A stretch of DNA of 64,000 nucleotides from Aliarcobacter lanthieri (GTDB taxonomy: Bacteria > Campylobacterota > Campylobacteria > Campylobacterales > Arcobacteraceae): the NCBI RefSeq assembly GCF_013201625.1, contig NZ_CP053839.1, positions 1,984,001-2,048,000 of the forward strand, written 5' to 3'. Every line of letters starts with the position of its first letter. Position 1 is the first letter of the stretch. The notes under the pieces were generated by a model. It ran no database searches. It worked only from the letters and a program-made list of their open reading frames with translations, and was not told where the DNA came from. A program made the translations under genes and the position numbers. Positions 10,065 through 17,861 of this stretch are shown here, in pieces.

Positions 10065-12419
10065 TTAATCTCTATTACAAATAGTTTTATAAGTACAATA
10101 CTCACAATTTATTTTATCTTCGGTTTTACAGAAATTTATAATCTCTTTACTTTGTTCTTTTAGACTATCAAAAATAGTTTTTAAAAGTTCTAATTTTTGC
10201 TCTAGGACAACTTCTTCTTTTAAAGAGTTTTCAAATAAATCACAATAGAATGCTCTAATATTTGATACTTTATATAAATCTTTTATAGCTAAAAAATAAA
10301 ACTCTAACTGAAAATCACAAGATTTTTCATAAGTATTTATAGTATCGATTTTTAAGTTCCTTGAAGTCTTATAATCTATTAATTCATAAGTATCTCCAAA
10401 TTTATCAACTCTATCTATCACTCCAGTTATTTTAAAATCATTAAAGTTTGTATTAAATTTTTTCTCTATTTCTATAATTTCGCGATTTTTCAATCTCTCT
10501 TTATCAAATTTTATAAAAGCTTCAATTTTTTGCTTATAAACTTCTAAATCAAGTATTAAAAATGGATTATCACTTTTATATTTTAAAAATAATTCATCAA
10601 TATTTTTTAAATCTCTTTGTGAATTTTTATAGAACTCTTCCAAAATCTTATGAATAATATTACCTAATTCAAATGGTTTTGGTAATCTTGATATAGTATG
10701 TTCTTTTAATTTTAGTATATATTTTAAATACCATCTTCTTTTACACTCTAAAAAAGTTTTTAAACTACTTGCAGACCAAACTTGTTTTGTTAAATCTATA
10801 TATAACAATATCTCTTGTTCACTATATTCTAATTTTTTACTTTTATATAAAATATCTTTATATACTTCATCGCTTATTGAAATTTTAATATCTGTAAATA
10901 ATTCATAAGCAAACTTTGATATCTCATCTTCATTTGAATTAACGTATGATATATAAAGATTTTTAGTGTTATCTATCAATCTTTTATAATAATATTTTTG
11001 TAAATTCTCTCTATCATTTTTTGTTGGCAAATTTGCCAAATATTTTACTTTAGTAGATAAGAACTTATCTTTTATAGATATTTTTGGAATATATGAGTTG
11101 TTAAAATCACAAATTATAACTGCATCAAAGTTTATTGCTCTTGTTTCAAGTAAACCCATAACTGTAATTTTACCAGCATGAGCATCATCTAATTTTATTT
11201 CATCTAATTTTTGTAAAAAGATTTTATAAGCATCTTTAAGACGTAAATTATTGTGATTTGTAAAAAATATGATATTTAACCTATATATTAACTCATCAAA
11301 CTTTTCCAATAGTTCCTTATTTTCTTCATCTTTTTTTATAAATTCACAAATCTTTCCAAAAACTTCTTTTGAGGTATGTTTATCCCAAATTGATTTTATA
11401 TTTTCATCTACATATTTTTTATCTATATCAAAATATTTTAAAGCCTCAATAGTTTCAATTTCATTAGAGTTTATATATAAAAATATACTATTTGCTCTTT
11501 GATATAGTATTTGATTTTGTATATTTTTGCCCATAGCAAAGTTAAAATATTCTTCACTATCATTTAGTTCCAAAATTTGTGCAAAACTTTCATTTGGTAA
11601 AACGACAGCTATATTTTGTGGATTTATACCTTTATTTATCAAATTTACAATACTTGATTTTATATATGCAACTTGATTAAATCTAGTAGAAAATCCTTTT
11701 ATTTCAAATATTTCTAATTTCTTCTGTGAAATAACTTCTTCTAGTATTTCAAAAGATGATAAATTTATCAAATATTCAAAATCTACTTTAAAATCATAAT
11801 TAAAACCTTTAAAAAGTTCTATCGATTTTCTATTATATAAATTTGAATAAAATTTTATAAAAACTTTTGTTTCCTTTGATATTTTTTTAATTATGTCATA
11901 TTCTTGTTTTGTAAAATAACCTTCATAAACTATTATAATTTCATCAAATCTTTTTATAAAATTTTCATTTATGGTATAAAATTTATCTAAATTTACTCTA
12001 TCAACATATAAATTCTGTTCCAAAATTTCTAAATATTTTTTATAAATTTGATTTAATATTTCTAAATGTTCACTATAAAATTCATATGTATCAGCTATTT
12101 GCAAATTTATTATTTCAATTTTCTCACTACTTAATTCCAAAAAAAATCTATATATGTACTCACTTTGTTTTAAAAATTTAACAAAACTATTTGATATCCC
12201 CAATTTTTTTATATCAATATTTTTTATAGCTTCATGTAAAAAAATAACTCTTTGTTCATCTTGAGTATATCTATAACCATTTAAAGATATAGATTTTTTT
12301 AAAAATTCATCAATTGTTAATGTTGAAGGGAGAAGAGTATCTTTTGATTTAAAATCAAAAAGATACTCTTTTATAGCTCTTGAAGTAGGAAATACAAAAA
12401 GAGACTTTTTATTTAGCAT
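10065..12419 (-). CDS. addB: AddB-like helicase/nuclease subunit
   Basis: Probable AddB subunit of the AddAB double-strand-break repair complex. The C-terminal RecB-type nuclease domain is clear: SASSLKTFLECKRRWYLKY, LGNIIHKILEEF, ITGVIDRVDK and YELIDYKTS (catalytic D and K). It is bracketed by cysteines at about 559, 772, 775 and 781, the 4Fe-4S cluster pattern of AddB. The N-terminal part looks like an inactivated helicase: it opens FVFPTSRAIKEYLF without a Walker A lysine loop. It overlaps the FixH-like gene by 11 bases. The addA partner gene is not adjacent, unlike in Campylobacter. Confidence 0.86.
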   Translation of the reverse strand: MLNKKSLFVFPTSRAIKEYLFDFKSKDTLLPSTLTIDEFLKKSISLNGYRYTQDEQRVIFLHEAIKNIDIKKLGISNSFVKFLKQSEYIYRFFLELSSEKIEIINLQIADTYEFYSEHLEILNQIYKKYLEILEQNLYVDRVNLDKFYTINENFIKRFDEIIIVYEGYFTKQEYDIIKKISKETKVFIKFYSNLYNRKSIELFKGFNYDFKVDFEYLINLSSFEILEEVISQKKLEIFEIKGFSTRFNQVAYIKSSIVNLINKGINPQNIAVVLPNESFAQILELNDSEEYFNFAMGKNIQNQILYQRANSIFLYINSNEIETIEALKYFDIDKKYVDENIKSIWDKHTSKEVFGKICEFIKKDEENKELLEKFDELIYRLNIIFFTNHNNLRLKDAYKIFLQKLDEIKLDDAHAGKITVMGLLETRAINFDAVIICDFNNSYIPKISIKDKFLSTKVKYLANLPTKNDRENLQKYYYKRLIDNTKNLYISYVNSNEDEISKFAYELFTDIKISISDEVYKDILYKSKKLEYSEQEILLYIDLTKQVWSASSLKTFLECKRRWYLKYILKLKEHTISRLPKPFELGNIIHKILEEFYKNSQRDLKNIDELFLKYKSDNPFLILDLEVYKQKIEAFIKFDKERLKNREIIEIEKKFNTNFNDFKITGVIDRVDKFGDTYELIDYKTSRNLKIDTINTYEKSCDFQLEFYFLAIKDLYKVSNIRAFYCDLFENSLKEEVVLEQKLELLKTIFDSLKEQSKEIINFCKTEDKINCEYCTYKTICNRD

Positions 12420-12969
12420 TTGTCTTTATAAAGATATAAGCAATACTATCATTTACTTTGAAACTACCTGTTATATTCCAGTTTGTTTCTTCATTTACTT
12501 CAAATATTGAGATATATTCACCATCTGTATTTTCAAAATTATTAGTTTTAAAAACTATATCATGATCATTAGTCATTGTTTTTGTAATAACTAAGTCTAT
12601 ATCAAGGTTTTGTTTTTCATTGCTATCTTTTGAAGTAATAAAAACTTTTAAAGTGTTATTACCTAATTTTAATGTATCTCTATGTCCTGAATATTTTTCA
12701 ATAACTCTTTGTCCATATTTAATATCTTCTGTTGTAAGACCAAACTCTCTATCATTTAAAACAAAAGATAGATTGTATTTTGATAAAAACTCTATATTAG
12801 CTTCCATTATTTTATTATAATTTTCATCTACGTCTTGGTATTTTAATAAAAAACTTCTATCTTCAATAACAGGAACCGTTATAGCACTTCTTATAGTCCA
12901 AATTATCATTATTAATGTAAATCCAAAAATTCCTATAAAAAATAAAGGCCAATAATTTCTTTTTCTCAT
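12409..12969 (-). CDS. FixH-like membrane protein of the cco operon
   Basis: A 186-aa protein with one N-terminal membrane segment (YWPLFFIGIFGFTLIMIIWTI) followed by a soluble, mostly beta-type domain outside the membrane. The WP pair before the membrane segment and the position downstream of ccoNOQP fit FixH/CcoG-operon proteins, which assist cbb3 oxidase assembly and copper handling in other bacteria. No cysteine or histidine metal motif is visible. It overlaps addB by 11 bases and follows the TPM-like gene by one base. Assignment depends mainly on context and topology. Confidence 0.6.
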   Translation of the reverse strand: MRKRNYWPLFFIGIFGFTLIMIIWTIRSAITVPVIEDRSFLLKYQDVDENYNKIMEANIEFLSKYNLSFVLNDREFGLTTEDIKYGQRVIEKYSGHRDTLKLGNNTLKVFITSKDSNEKQNLDIDLVITKTMTNDHDIVFKTNNFENTDGEYISIFEVNEETNWNITGSFKVNDSIAYIFIKTNAK

Positions 12970-12970
12970 A

Positions 12971-13600
12971 TTATTTTCTCTTTCTTAATACTGCATAAGT
13001 ATATGCTAAAAGTCCACTAATGATTAAAAAATACATAAATACTCTCCAAATTGTACTAGATATTTTTCCTTGACTTCCAATACTACTTTCAAGTTTTACA
13101 TTTTGTTCTTCAGCTAGTGTATCAGCGATTGCGGCATAACCATTTAAAGTTGCAGCACTTACTTTTGCATAAAGTGTATTTTTATCTTTTGATGCAAGTA
13201 ATGGTACTACATATCCATTTAAAATATCATTCTTATCAATTATATTTTTTAGACTCTCACTAAAACTTAAATTTACCATATTTTCTTCAACATAAATTGT
13301 TAGTAATACATAAGGATTTTGTAAATCCTTTATAAGCCCGCTCTCATGTAATTTTACTTCTTCAATTTTATCTTTTGTTTTAGTATCTTGTTCTAAACCT
13401 AAATTAGATTTTGCATAAACATATATATTAATACCTAGCTTAGATTTAACTTCCGATCCCATTTGGCTAATTTTATCTTTCGCTCTATCATCAATTAAAC
13501 CATCATCATTTAAAATATAAGTTTGTGCAAAGCTGTTTGTATATAAAAAAAGTAGAAGTGAAAAAATCACCCCTACTTTTATAAATTTTAAATTTTTCAT
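12971..13600 (-). CDS. TPM-domain-like secreted, C-terminally anchored protein
   Basis: A 209-aa protein with a signal peptide (residues about 7-25, ending SFAQ), a central domain beginning YILNDDGLIDDRAKDKISQMG, and a C-terminal membrane helix (VFMYFLIISGLLAYTYAVL) ending in RKRK. The opening of the central domain and the LGINIYVYAKS strand resemble TPM (YgcG-type) domains. The start codon touches the stop codon of the 30-aa ORF. Its position in the cbb3 operon suggests a role in oxidase assembly or envelope quality control; that is inference only. Confidence 0.6.
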   Translation of the reverse strand: MKNLKFIKVGVIFSLLLFLYTNSFAQTYILNDDGLIDDRAKDKISQMGSEVKSKLGINIYVYAKSNLGLEQDTKTKDKIEEVKLHESGLIKDLQNPYVLLTIYVEENMVNLSFSESLKNIIDKNDILNGYVVPLLASKDKNTLYAKVSAATLNGYAAIADTLAEEQNVKLESSIGSQGKISSTIWRVFMYFLIISGLLAYTYAVLRKRK

Positions 13601-13693
13601 TTAACCAACATATACTCTTGCTGCATCAAAGTATGCATAGTATGCAGTTATAACAGCAGAAATTAAAAGTAAAATACCAATAATTTTTTCCAT
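13601..13693 (-). CDS. Small membrane peptide (30 aa) in the cbb3 operon
   Basis: An ATG-started ORF encoding MEKIIGILLLISAVITAYYA followed by YFDAARVYVG. AAGGAG lies about 6 bases before the ATG. Its start is 3 bases after the DUF4006 stop, and its stop is immediately followed by the ATG of the TPM-like gene, so the spacing leaves no gap unexplained. About 20 residues form one membrane helix. Oxidases of this superfamily often carry tiny single-helix subunits, and this could be one, or an assembly peptide. I do not recognise the sequence. Confidence 0.7.
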   Translation of the reverse strand: MEKIIGILLLISAVITAYYAYFDAARVYVG

Positions 13694-13696
13694 ACC

Positions 13697-13945
13697 TTAC
13701 TCCTTATTTTCAGAACCAATTAATTGGTAATGTTTATGATTTTCAGGGCTATTAGCTTTTAATCCATGTAAATCTTGATTAATAGTATAAATATTTGTAG
13801 CCTCTCGTTGTTGAACTAAAACAGCATTTGTAACTAAAGTTGCAAGAATTGTAAGTAGTAAAACAACTGCTATCAGCATACCTGTAACCCCATTTAACTT
13901 AAAGATTCCTCTTTCGTTTTCATTCATTTGTGTATTATTTGCCAT
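13697..13945 (-). CDS. DUF4006 family small membrane protein
   Basis: An 82-aa protein with one membrane helix (residues about 20-45, GMLIAVVLLLTILATLVTNAVLV) between short polar ends. The opening ERGIFKLNGVTG and the position after ccoP match DUF4006 proteins found next to ccoP in Campylobacterota, as I remember them. Its start overlaps the ccoP stop by one base. Function is unknown; association with the cbb3 oxidase is inferred from the fixed location. Confidence 0.72.
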   Translation of the reverse strand: MANNTQMNENERGIFKLNGVTGMLIAVVLLLTILATLVTNAVLVQQREATNIYTINQDLHGLKANSPENHKHYQLIGSENKE

Positions 13946-14838
13946 TACTTATCTCCTAAACTTCTGATATATGAAGCTAAAGCTTTTTCTTGAGTTTCAT
14001 TTAATCTCTCATTAAAGCTTGGCATTTGACCTAAAAGTCCTTTTTTACCTTCTTTTAATACTGCAAAAACAATTGAATCGTCATAATCTTTAATATTTGG
14101 ACCTACAAAAGGCATACCTTCACCATTTTCACCATGACAAGCTGCACAAGTTGCATAAGCTGCTGGTTGTTCACCTTTAAATCCACTTGCAACATATGTA
14201 GCTACTACATCAATATCAGCATCCTCTGTTAACATCATTGGAGGCATCCCAGCAGGGAAAGATTGAGTTAAATGATTTGAACCATTTTTAATTGTATAAA
14301 CAACTTGTTCTTTAGTCATTCTATGAGTTAAATTTTGAGCTTTACCTTCAATTCCTTCAGCATCAACACCATGACAAGGAGCACATTGAACTAAGAAAAT
14401 AGATTGTCCCATAGCATTTAATGTTGATTCATTAGCATTAACCCATTTTTGTTCAAATTTAGTGTTATATTCATTTGTCTCTTCATTCCATTGTCCAATT
14501 TGAGAAAACCCATTAACTGGATAACCGATTGTTAGATACCAAAACATCCAAAGAATTGCTCCAATAAATGCTAAGGCCCAACCAGTTGGAACAGGGTTTT
14601 TATATTCACCAATACCATCCCAATTTTCATTAGCAAGTTCCCCACTTGCTGTATCATTTTTAATTTGATTAACATATTTTAAAACAACAAATGTACTAAT
14701 CGTAATAATTGCTGCTGCACCTAAAAATGTTAATGCATTAATATAATCATCACTAATAAAAGCATCACCTGCAAAAAAGTAAGTTCCTGCCATTAATGCG
14801 ATGATAAGAATTATTCCACCTATTACCATAGATTTCAT
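13945..14838 (-). CDS. ccoP: cbb3 cytochrome oxidase diheme subunit III
   Basis: Membrane-anchored diheme cytochrome c that passes electrons to CcoO and CcoN. It has two hydrophobic segments in the first 55 residues and another near 87-105 (GWALAFIGAILWMFWYL). Heme motifs are C152-x-x-C155-H156 and C231-x-x-C234-H235. Distal methionine candidates lie in SFPAGMPPM and GLLGQMPSF. Length (297 aa) is usual for the family. The two-base gap after ccoQ and the one-base overlap with DUF4006 place it in the middle of the operon. Confidence 0.96.
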   Translation of the reverse strand: MKSMVIGGIILIIALMAGTYFFAGDAFISDDYINALTFLGAAAIITISTFVVLKYVNQIKNDTASGELANENWDGIGEYKNPVPTGWALAFIGAILWMFWYLTIGYPVNGFSQIGQWNEETNEYNTKFEQKWVNANESTLNAMGQSIFLVQCAPCHGVDAEGIEGKAQNLTHRMTKEQVVYTIKNGSNHLTQSFPAGMPPMMLTEDADIDVVATYVASGFKGEQPAAYATCAACHGENGEGMPFVGPNIKDYDDSIVFAVLKEGKKGLLGQMPSFNERLNETQEKALASYIRSLGDK

Positions 14839-14839
14839 C

Positions 14840-15064
14840 TTATTTCTCCTTATTTCCTATATCTTTTTCTCTTTTTATCTCTTCAAGAGGAGCTGAAACA
14901 CTTGAATCATCATGTACAAGCTTTGAGTATTTTTCAAAATCTCTTTCTCCTCTTTTGTCTCTTCTATAAATAGAAAAAGCATATGAATAAAATAGAATGA
15001 ATACAACCAAAACTAAAAAGAATTTAGTATAACCTTGTACTGTTAAAAGTGTTTCGTAATCCAT
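14840..15064 (-). CDS. ccoQ: cbb3 oxidase small subunit CcoQ
   Basis: A 74-aa protein with one membrane helix (FFLVLVVFILFYSYAFSIY) and a charged C-terminal tail. CcoQ stabilises the core oxidase complex in other bacteria. Identity comes from size, topology and position between ccoO and ccoP; the sequence itself is poorly conserved in this family. Confidence 0.88.
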   Translation of the reverse strand: MDYETLLTVQGYTKFFLVLVVFILFYSYAFSIYRRDKRGERDFEKYSKLVHDDSSVSAPLEEIKREKDIGNKEK

Positions 15065-15073
15065 AACTAACCT

Positions 15074-15739
15074 CTATTTTAAAGAATTTAAATATGCAAT
15101 TAATGCAACTATTTCAGGAACTTCACCATTTTCAACAGCTTGTTTAACACTCTCATTTTTCATATTAGCTGCAATAAGTTTAGCTTCTTCTAAAGCTGCT
15201 GCTTTTGCATCTTCCCAAGTACCAAGTTTTGGCATATCTTCTTGATCATAAGGAGTATTAAATACTGCTTTTACTGTTACTGCTTCTGCATAAGCTGTTT
15301 CAATATCAGCTTTATTTGTAAATTGGTGTTTGTATGCTGGCATAATACTACCAGGAACAACTGCTTTTGGATCCCACATATGGTTTTCATGCCAATCTGT
15401 AGTTCTATAATTTCCAACTCTTAACAAGTCTGGTCCAGTTCTTTTTGAACCCCATAAAAATGGTCTATCATAAGCATACTCACCAGATAATGAATACATA
15501 CCATATCTATCAGTTTCTGATTTAAATGGTCTAACTAATTGTGAGTGACAAGCATTACATGAATCTTTAATATAAACATGTCTTCCTGCTAACTCTAAAA
15601 TACTATAAGGCTTTGTACCAACTGTTGGTCTTGATTGTTTTGCAAAGTCTGGAATTACTTCAATAATCCCTGCAAATGCAACGAATATAAATACTAGTAC
15701 CGCAAAGAAAAACGGTCTTTGTTCAAACCAATGAAACAT
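15074..15739 (-). CDS. ccoO: cbb3 cytochrome oxidase monoheme subunit II
   Basis: Monoheme cytochrome c subunit anchored by an N-terminal helix (FFFAVLVFIFVAFAGIIEVIP). The heme motif is C61-x-x-C64-H65 in DSCNACHSQLVRPF, followed by the family segments RYGMYSLSGEYAYDRPFLWGSKRTGPDL and GSIMPAYKH (distal Met). Length 221 aa is normal. It follows ccoN by 14 bases. Confidence 0.97.
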   Translation of the reverse strand: MFHWFEQRPFFFAVLVFIFVAFAGIIEVIPDFAKQSRPTVGTKPYSILELAGRHVYIKDSCNACHSQLVRPFKSETDRYGMYSLSGEYAYDRPFLWGSKRTGPDLLRVGNYRTTDWHENHMWDPKAVVPGSIMPAYKHQFTNKADIETAYAEAVTVKAVFNTPYDQEDMPKLGTWEDAKAAALEEAKLIAANMKNESVKQAVENGEVPEIVALIAYLNSLK

Positions 15740-15753
15740 AATCTCTCCTTTTC

Positions 15754-17223
15754 TTAAGCAGCTACTGGAGTTGCATTTACTGGTTCTTTATCAAGAACTC
15801 TTCCACATCTAATTGTTTTGTAAATGTTATAAGTAAATATAAAGAATCCTATTAGGTATAATAAACCACCAACTGCTCTAATTGTATAGTATGGATGTAA
15901 TACAGTAACTGTATCAATAAATGAATAAACTAATGAACCATACTCGTCATAAGCTCTCCACATCATACCTTGAGTAATACCTGCAATCCACATAGATGTA
16001 AAGTATAAAACAATTCCAACCGTTTGTAACCAGAATTGAGTTTCCATTAAAGATTTAGAGTATAACTCTCTTTTGAACATTCTTGGAACCATATGGAATA
16101 AAGCTGCCATAACCATAAATACAACCCATCCTAAAACTCCATCATGAACGTGTCCTGGAATCCAATCTGTAAAGTGTGCAATCGCATTAACAGATTTAAT
16201 AGATTGAATTGGTCCTTCAATTGTAGATAACATATAGAATGTTGAAGCTAAAACCATAAATTTAATTAAAGTATTTGTTTGTAACTGATTCCACTCACCT
16301 TTCATAGTTAAAAGCATATTAATTGCAGATCCCCATGATGGTAAAATAAGAACAACAGACATAACAGAACCCATAGTTTGCATCCAATCTGGAACAGTTG
16401 AATAAATCAAGTGGTGTCCACCAGCCCATAAGTAAACAAATAATAATCCCCAGAATGCTAAGATTGATAATTTATAAGAATAAACATTTTGTCCAGATTC
16501 TTTTGGTAAGAAATAGTAAATTAATGCAATAATTGGAGCAGTAAATACGAATGCAACAGCATTGTGTCCATACCACCATTGAACTAAAGCATCATTAGTA
16601 CCTGAATACATAGAAACAGAGTGTAGCCATGAACCATAACCAGAAACTAAATATGTTGGAACTGCCATGTTATTAAATAAATATAGCATAGCAATAGCAA
16701 TAAATGTAGCAATAAAATACCAAATAGAGATATATAATGTTCTTTCTCTTCTGATTCCGATTATTCCAAAAATAGAAATACCCCATAAAACCCAGAAAAC
16801 AACAACTAAAATGTCTAATGGCCACTCTAGCTCAGCATATTCTTTCGAAGTTGTAAATCCCATAAATAGTGTAACAACAGCTAAAAGAATTGTAATGAAA
16901 TATATCCAAAAGTGTATTTTAGCAATTGCCATTAAAAAAGGTGACTCTTTTAATGAAACTTTTAAAACTCTTTGTGATATATAATACCATCCAGCAAAAA
17001 CTCCACTTAGTGTAAATCCAAACGCAACACCATTTGTGTGTAGCGGTCTTAATCTACTAAATGTACCATATTCTCCTGCTAAATAATTTAGCTCTGGAAA
17101 AGCCAATTGAAAAGCAAGCACAACACCAATTGTCATACCAATGATACCGAACAATATTGTTGCAAATGTAAAACACTTAGCAACTGAGTAGTCATACTCA
17201 ATTTGTGCACCGTTTTGCATCAA
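15754..17223 (-). CDS. ccoN: cbb3 cytochrome oxidase catalytic subunit I
   Basis: The heme-copper catalytic subunit that reduces O2 at low oxygen tension. It has about twelve membrane helices. Histidine-bearing family segments are seen: RPLHTNGVAFGF (low-spin heme), WWYGHNAVAFVFTAPI (CuB His and cross-linked Tyr region), GGHHLIYS (CuB pair), and IPGHVHDGVLGW (heme ligands). Length 489 aa. It is the first gene of the operon; an AGGAGGAAATTG ribosome site precedes the ATG. The leader between smpB and ccoN (17224-17378) is the likely promoter region. Confidence 0.97.
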   Translation of the reverse strand: MMQNGAQIEYDYSVAKCFTFATILFGIIGMTIGVVLAFQLAFPELNYLAGEYGTFSRLRPLHTNGVAFGFTLSGVFAGWYYISQRVLKVSLKESPFLMAIAKIHFWIYFITILLAVVTLFMGFTTSKEYAELEWPLDILVVVFWVLWGISIFGIIGIRRERTLYISIWYFIATFIAIAMLYLFNNMAVPTYLVSGYGSWLHSVSMYSGTNDALVQWWYGHNAVAFVFTAPIIALIYYFLPKESGQNVYSYKLSILAFWGLLFVYLWAGGHHLIYSTVPDWMQTMGSVMSVVLILPSWGSAINMLLTMKGEWNQLQTNTLIKFMVLASTFYMLSTIEGPIQSIKSVNAIAHFTDWIPGHVHDGVLGWVVFMVMAALFHMVPRMFKRELYSKSLMETQFWLQTVGIVLYFTSMWIAGITQGMMWRAYDEYGSLVYSFIDTVTVLHPYYTIRAVGGLLYLIGFFIFTYNIYKTIRCGRVLDKEPVNATPVAA

Positions 17224-17378
17224 TTTCCTCCTACAAAATTTATATACAAGTCACAAAATGTCACTCATTAGCTAAAATAATAGCCAAGAAAAACTTAAAC
17301 TAAACAAAAAAATTAACAATTAATTAACGATTATTTACTGTTTTGAGCATATTTTTTAAAAAAAAATTAAGATAAAAA
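17224..17378 (-). promoter_or_regulatory. Leader and promoter region of the cco operon
   Basis: A 155-base AT-rich gap upstream of ccoN. It holds a GCTA-N6-TAGC palindrome at 17271-17284, two GTCAC copies 10 bases apart at 17250-17264, and a TTAATTAA-centred stretch near 17310-17330. No FNR box (TTGAT-N4-ATCAA) was found by eye. No single promoter is convincing. Confidence 0.35.
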
Positions 17379-17861
17379 TTATCCTAATTTATAATTTTTT
17401 AGAGCAATCTGAGTATCTCTTTTCATACTTTTTTCTTTTAAATCTTCTCTTTTATCATATAGCTTTTTACCTTGAGCGTTAGCTACTTCAACTTTTATCA
17501 TATTTTTATTATTAAAATATAATTTTGTACATATTAAAGTTATCCCATCTTTAGTAACTTTTTCATACATTTTATTTATTTGTTTAGTATGAAGCAATAA
17601 CTTTCTTGCTCTTCTTTCATCAGGTCTATAAGTACTATGAGTTGTACTTAAATGTGAAATATGTGCATTTAATAAAAAAACTTCACCTTTGATTATTCTT
17701 ACAAAGCTATCTTTTAAATTTACTCTTCCTTCTCTTATAGCTTTTACTTCACTACCTTCAAGAACTATTCCAGCTTCTAAACTATCTAAAATAGTAAAAT
17801 CATGAAATGCTTTTTTATTCCTAAATACTAAATTTTTTTTTGTATCTTTTTTATTTGCCAT
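17379..17861 (-). CDS. smpB: tmRNA-binding protein SmpB
   Basis: Partner of tmRNA in rescuing stalled ribosomes. Family motifs include [44 protein letters not shown] and [10 protein letters not shown], with a basic C-terminal tail. Length 160 aa. Its start overlaps the ispE stop by 11 bases. It ends the pcrA-truB-ispE-smpB run. The tmRNA gene itself is not in the window. Confidence 0.97.

Follow-up and report, generated by a model that had tools for sequence, protein, structure and literature searches.

The 30-residue membrane peptide CcoY and a terminator-like hairpin at the start of ccoZ in the cbb3 oxidase operon of Aliarcobacter lanthieri and its relatives

The window, a 64,000-nt stretch of the Aliarcobacter lanthieri contig NZ_CP053839.1, contains the operon of a cbb3 oxidase, a high-affinity respiratory enzyme that consumes oxygen; the operon reads on the minus strand in the order ccoN, ccoO, ccoQ, ccoP, ccoX, ccoY, ccoZ and ccoH, followed by a 784-residue ORF that we take to be AddB-like. 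Across the operon and this last ORF the gaps range from -11 to 14 nt. The gene for the catalytic subunit, ccoN (positions 15754–17223), is listed from a TTG at 17223, with an ATG at 17220, and its product is 78% identical to CcoN of L134, a locus labelled Campylobacter jejuni. The products of ccoO (15074–15739) and ccoP (13945–14838) are 71% and 43% identical to L134 ORFs, the latter with the Pfam domains FixP_N and Cytochrome_CBB3. For ccoQ (14840–15064), Pfam FixQ scores 29.2 bits (cut-off 29) and TIGR02736 scores 47.9 bits, under its cut-off of 61.55; the gene is also assigned by its best match in L134. The DUF4006 gene ccoX (13697–13945) matches PF13179 with an E-value of 8.6e-28 and an L134 ORF with 1.5e-11. 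The L134 counterparts of ccoQ, ccoX, ccoZ, ccoH and the AddB-like ORF each reach an E-value of 2e-9 or better (2.3e-9 for ccoH).

Downstream of the peptide gene lie ccoZ (12971–13600), predicted to encode a membrane-anchored TPM-fold protein, and ccoH (12409–12969), which is weakly FixH-like. The Pfam TPM match of ccoZ is below the cut-off, as is the FixH match of ccoH (E 0.15); their L134 counterparts are found at 1.9e-18 and 2.3e-9. In a Foldseek search of the PDB, CcoZ matches TPM structures with E-values of 4.6e-5 to 7.6e-4 and the Mycobacterium smegmatis supercomplex subunit 6hwh_O with 4.1e-3. The modelled protein thus has a TPM fold like that of the mycobacterial subunit, in agreement with the account of Cj1484 in the available portion of the C. 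jejuni study (PMC8267372).

The peptide gene ccoY (13601–13693, minus strand) encodes 30 residues, MEKIIGILLLISAVITAYYAYFDAARVYVG; the plus strand at these positions contains stop codons, and the ORF is its complement. The sequence-only reading had placed a single-helix ORF, preceded by AAGGAG, almost exactly in the gap between the DUF4006 gene and the TPM-like gene, and each of these features holds. The ATG lies 3 nt past the ccoX stop, no nucleotides separate the ccoY stop from the ATG of ccoZ, and the AAGGAG ribosome-binding site with its spacer (13694–13709, minus strand) stands 6 nt ahead of the start codon. AlphaFold2, run on the single sequence, predicts one helix spanning residues 2–29 with a mean pLDDT of 94.6, and the best 19-residue stretch has a hydropathy of 2.13. 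When the 96-nt gap is shuffled, an ATG ORF of at least 30 residues arises in 19 of 20,000 sequences. No Pfam or NCBIfam model covers the peptide.

Within the family the ORF is conserved and under purifying selection, and it is a real gene. Of 100 relatives drawn, 61 belong to the same family, and 57 of these contain the peptide (E 0.0022 or better) with no internal stops, the frameshifts and stops that were to be looked for in close relatives being absent. A pattern script recovers a 30-codon frame at 47 of the 49 family loci, and the two that it missed (L213 and L220) also encode 30 residues when inspected by eye. Across 22 disjoint nearest pairs there are 147 synonymous and 121 non-synonymous differences, corresponding to a pN/pS of 0.24 (binomial p 1.8e-29). 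This is the synonymous-versus-non-synonymous comparison proposed for the peptide, which proves to be conserved and selected, with a single predicted helix, within the cbb3 operon. Mean entropy is highest at the third codon position and lowest at the second (1.01, 0.64 and 0.35 for positions 3, 1 and 2), and the alternative reading frames contain stops in 36 to 45 of the 45 distinct sequences. The same single-sequence query gives two weak matches (E 0.30 and 0.49) among the 39 genomes of other families; nothing solid is found outside the family in this way, and profiles are therefore needed.

A peptide in this position already has a name in C. jejuni, so the suggestion that the window peptide is unrecognised does not stand. 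According to the available portion of PMC8267372, cj1486c is ccoX, a DUF4006 gene essential to oxidase activity; cj1485c is ccoY, encoding 33 residues with one helix, deletion of which significantly lowers oxidase activity and does not abolish it; cj1484c is ccoZ (TPM) and cj1483c is ccoH. In L134 and in L143, a second locus labelled C. jejuni, the sites of the cj1485c primers printed in that portion flank a 33-residue ORF, MNKALEYLIVIGLVVAAAITAWSVLTVNHLHIG, with 0–1 mismatch, except for one screening primer that has 2 mismatches in L143. The printed cj1484c primer 1484_F1R has no site in L134 at up to 2 mismatches; set against L134:4331-4352, it points to a hairpin loop whose T tract is longer in strain NCTC 11168 than the T5 of L134. 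This mismatch could be a matter of primer typing or a variable tract.

The connection between the window peptide and CcoY of C. jejuni was followed through DUF4006 neighbourhoods fetched across the order, which comprise 167 loci of other families with 26,867 ORFs. Searched against these ORFs, a profile built from the window family alone has its first 87 matches at the ccoY position without exception, while match 88 is also a ccoY, passed over by the position rule; five column-shuffled profiles yield 0, 0, 0, 1 and 2 positional matches. The reverse search used a profile made by position only, from the first ATG ORF of 26–45 codons that follows ccoX, taken irrespective of similarity (155 of the 167 loci). 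Of the 1,429 ORFs in the window, this profile scores the peptide best, with an E-value of 3.3e-7, the next being 0.36. A profile of 12 Campylobacter sequences likewise places the window peptide first (E 0.013, next 0.9), and phmmer with the window peptide places ccoY first among the L134 ORFs (E 0.012). The family profile finds C. jejuni ccoY at rank 119 of 155 with an E-value of 1.6, hhalign of that profile against the 12 Campylobacter peptides gives a probability of 58% over 18 columns, and pairwise BLAST of the window peptide against the L134 ORFs does not find ccoY. Direct similarity between the window and Campylobacter is weak, and the case for homology therefore rests on the intermediates and on position. 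Judged on these sequence comparisons, the window peptide shares both ancestry and operon position with ccoY (cj1485c) of C. jejuni, and is thus another CcoY; the name and the mutant effect in C. jejuni were known before.

Like its C. jejuni counterpart, the window peptide sits between ccoX (DUF4006) and ccoZ (TPM) in a ccoNOQP operon, and the two share one helix and profile-detectable homology at lengths of 30 and 33 residues. The two ends of the peptide are characteristic of the window family, which begins directly with M-D/E-K/R and closes with FD-x-x-x-V-Y/F-V-G, whereas most other families have a C-terminal NHL motif in the form TPNHL-F/Y-V/I-G. Among the 155 ORFs chosen by position, G is found at the C-terminal end in 142 and an ending of the type H-L/A-x-V/I-G/N/S in 120. 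The CcoY of L195, which is labelled Arcobacteraceae bacterium, has the NHLFVG end typical of the other families; a wrong label or a deep branch may account for this.

In the order as a whole, CcoY follows the catalytic subunit closely. Profiles match CcoY in 210, DUF4006 in 206 and CcoN in 214 of 248 genomes, the CcoN set being 209 after removal of five weak matches (G062, G100, G126, G252 and G259). CcoY is present in 202 of the 209 genomes with CcoN versus 8 of the 39 without it; 7 genomes have CcoN alone and 31 have neither (Fisher p 2e-25). Several of the eight genomes with CcoY alone are fragmented assemblies of one family (f4). Among those with CcoN alone, three (G209, G218 and G248) have ccoX about 300 nt or less from a contig end, and G067 holds a 29-residue ORF at the ccoY place that the profile missed. 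The literature that was searched describes CcoY for C. jejuni only, and the present survey extends it to nearly every cbb3-bearing genome sampled in the order. This reach argues for CcoX and CcoY being constant components of this branch of oxidases.

The arrangement around ccoY varies in ways that separate it from the genes that follow. In the f4 loci and several f18 loci that were read, a 1.4-kb ORF of about 480 residues, presumably CcoG-like (L062, L063, L096, L097 and L100), lies between ccoX and ccoY, and ccoY still adjoins ccoZ. All five loci of family f23 have ccoY directly after ccoX, and ccoZ was not found in the stretches fetched for them. Two members of the window family have a second oxidase operon, which in G029 consists of N-O-P-X-Y only and in G021 reads N-O-Q-P-X-Y; neither includes ccoZ or ccoH. 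The genes ccoX and ccoY thus accompany the core genes of the oxidase, which ccoZ and ccoH need not do. The second cbb3 operons, at L201:673-5673 and L202:2412-7637, have ccoX and ccoY of their own and are followed by a 524-residue ORF; that of L201 is also without ccoQ.

A scan for terminator-like elements flags a hairpin with a T run (13548–13580, minus strand) that occupies the opening codons of ccoZ, directly downstream of ccoY. It is predicted to form 14 pairs around a loop of 5, with a stability of -16.2 kcal/mol and the tail TTTATATA. Within 120 nt past ccoY, 140 of the 209 loci with a placed ccoY (67%) have a hairpin that reaches -8 kcal/mol and is followed by a T-rich tail, a count of related loci with partly overlapping species and not of independent events, compared with 6.7% of dinucleotide shuffles, 6.2% at the ccoX/ccoY junction and 5.3% inside ccoZ. 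In 183 of 196 loci the hairpin begins no earlier than the start codon chosen for ccoZ. Synonymous resampling, which keeps the protein fixed, was applied to 200 of the 209 loci, the other nine having no long ccoZ frame by the rule used; hairpin and tail are present in 67.5% of these loci versus 10.6% of resampled sequences, and the hairpin with no tail required in 195 of 200 versus 21%. In a map of 79 named loci, terminator-like hairpins form a single sharp peak directly after ccoY (47 of 79), and every other 120-nt bin of the operon holds 0–33%.

The stem also covaries within the family, 10 of its 14 pairs changing on both sides. The covariation score is 0.360, where shuffles give 0.237 and slid versions no more than 0.211, as obtained from an alignment (A4) of 36 of the 45 distinct family sequences that omits the near-duplicates L013, L015, L023, L025, L026, L027, L030, L204 and L210; rows whose loops differ in length fall out of register and lower the paired share (89%). 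Among 374 gene starts in a sample of the genome from which the window comes, the ccoZ hairpin ranks second. The start of ccoP (13945–14838, minus strand) ranks fourth of the 374 for a hairpin with a T-rich tail, at -11.4 kcal/mol. The tail is not constant: family f16 has a T-tailed hairpin in 0 of 11 loci, although 10 of the 11 have a hairpin that reaches -8 kcal/mol, and several named Sulfuricurvum and Sulfurimonas loci have a hairpin without a T tail, which may there be an mRNA-stabilising or processing element. The two second operons that have no ccoZ show no such hairpin. Rfam gives two matches over 12300–17500, both under the gathering score; one of them, L20_leader, overlies the hairpin with an E-value of 0.31 and is taken as chance.

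By sequence criteria the hairpin resembles an intrinsic terminator, with a predicted stable stem and a T-rich run. In the literature searched, in part by title, no description of it was found. One reading, which we put forward tentatively and regard as doubtful, is that the Campylobacterales cbb3 operon is split by a terminator within the signal-peptide codons of ccoZ into a core (ccoNOQP-X-Y) and an accessory part (ccoZ-H), with CcoY as the last core subunit and a switch for CcoZ and CcoH. Purine-rich codons for basic residues would then supply one arm; the second arm, together with the U tract, would come from pyrimidine-rich codons for hydrophobic residues. Ribosomes that finish ccoY at its stop and pass on to the adjoining start of ccoZ would set the amount of read-through.

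For the peptide itself, the reading that we consider rather probable is that CcoY is a small structural subunit that packs on the core and stabilises it, with the hairpin setting the amounts of the core relative to ccoZH. CcoY would be what we call the fifth product of the ccoNOQP-X-Y-Z-H operon, a single-span inner-membrane protein made alongside the core enzyme, and its helix would pack against the CcoNO(Q)P core much as the CcoM helix does in the Pseudomonas stutzeri cbb3 oxidase and the CydX helix in cytochrome bd. At the hairpin, some transcripts would stop just past ccoY, or have their 3' ends protected, which would give core-level synthesis of N, O, Q, P, X and Y and a lower output of the TPM-fold CcoZ and of CcoH. 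The conserved hairpin would offer a simple, testable route to unequal core and accessory levels within one operon. The co-occurrence of CcoY with CcoN and its retention in second operons without ccoZ and ccoH favour such a subunit; the one helix, the restriction of those operons to core genes and the position of ccoY on the core side of the hairpin point the same way. The sequence-only reading had proposed a subunit or an assembly factor, and one or the other remains likely, although not as an unrecognised component.

The assembly factor is the runner-up, a minority possibility in which CcoY would be absent from the finished enzyme and would help CcoX, CcoH or CcoZ to assemble the complex or to couple it to Qcr (bc). 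The neighbours of ccoY, namely ccoX, ccoZ and ccoH, agree with this, as does the mutant phenotype in the available portion of PMC8267372, where deletion merely lowers activity, as with ccoZ. Mass spectrometry in C. jejuni, as listed in the same portion, detected nine proteins of the oxidase and Qcr, and CcoY is not among them; peptides this small are, however, easily missed by the method. Against an assembly role, ccoY is kept in second operons that have neither ccoZ nor ccoH and in the f23 loci in which no ccoZ was found, and the conserved hairpin leaves it grouped with the core genes. The phenotype itself may be indirect. The cassette used for the C. jejuni mutants has a promoter and no terminator, according to the authors, and genetic complementation of the ccoY mutant was not found in the available portion of their report, so an effect of the ccoY deletion through ccoZ and ccoH expression is possible.

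A more remote alternative, which we consider improbable, is that ccoY is mainly a leader-type ORF whose translation and touching or overlapping handover govern the hairpin at the ccoZ start and thereby the level of ccoZH. The ccoY stop does touch or overlap the ccoZ start, and the hairpin begins a median of about 20 nt past that stop. A pure leader, however, would not need the amino-acid sequence that is conserved and selected here, and the peptide is retained in second operons that have neither the hairpin nor ccoZ. That ccoY is a functionless chance ORF, for which its small size alone speaks, is contradicted by its conservation, its selection and its co-occurrence with CcoN, and is refuted for the conserved gene to the point of being negligible.

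As a structural subunit, CcoY would have its closest working analogue in CcoM, a tiny single-helix protein of the P. stutzeri cbb3 oxidase that has 36–37 residues (36 in the available portion of PMC10433244) and a role as quoted in that of PMC8267372. A search of PDB sequences with the CcoY profile finds no homologous chain in any solved cbb3 structure; at E-values up to 10, profile A1 gives 3 matches, none of them a cbb3 chain and none similar to CcoM, and CcoX profiles find no relative. CioY of C. jejuni and CydX of Escherichia coli are single-helix terminal-oxidase partners of about 34 residues encoded just after the large subunits, as described in the accessible part of PMC11955535. Their partner is a bd-type oxidase, whereas CcoY belongs to a cbb3 operon. 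Membership of the window peptide in the CydX, CioY or CydP families was considered and rejected, as it is encoded in a cbb3 operon and matches no family model; the NCBIfam CydP model is touched by one of 41 CcoY members, with an E-value of 0.0046.

The nearest parallel to the hairpin is the HRC-8-4 RNA motif of Rhodobacterales, a terminator-like stem between ccoNOQP and the maturation genes ccoGHIS, according to the accessible part of PMC8632094. As described there, HRC-8-4 and the ccoZ hairpin have in common a terminator-like stem that follows the oxidase structural genes; HRC-8-4 is a noncoding motif with conserved loop nucleotides, whereas the ccoZ hairpin lies within codons and varies in sequence.
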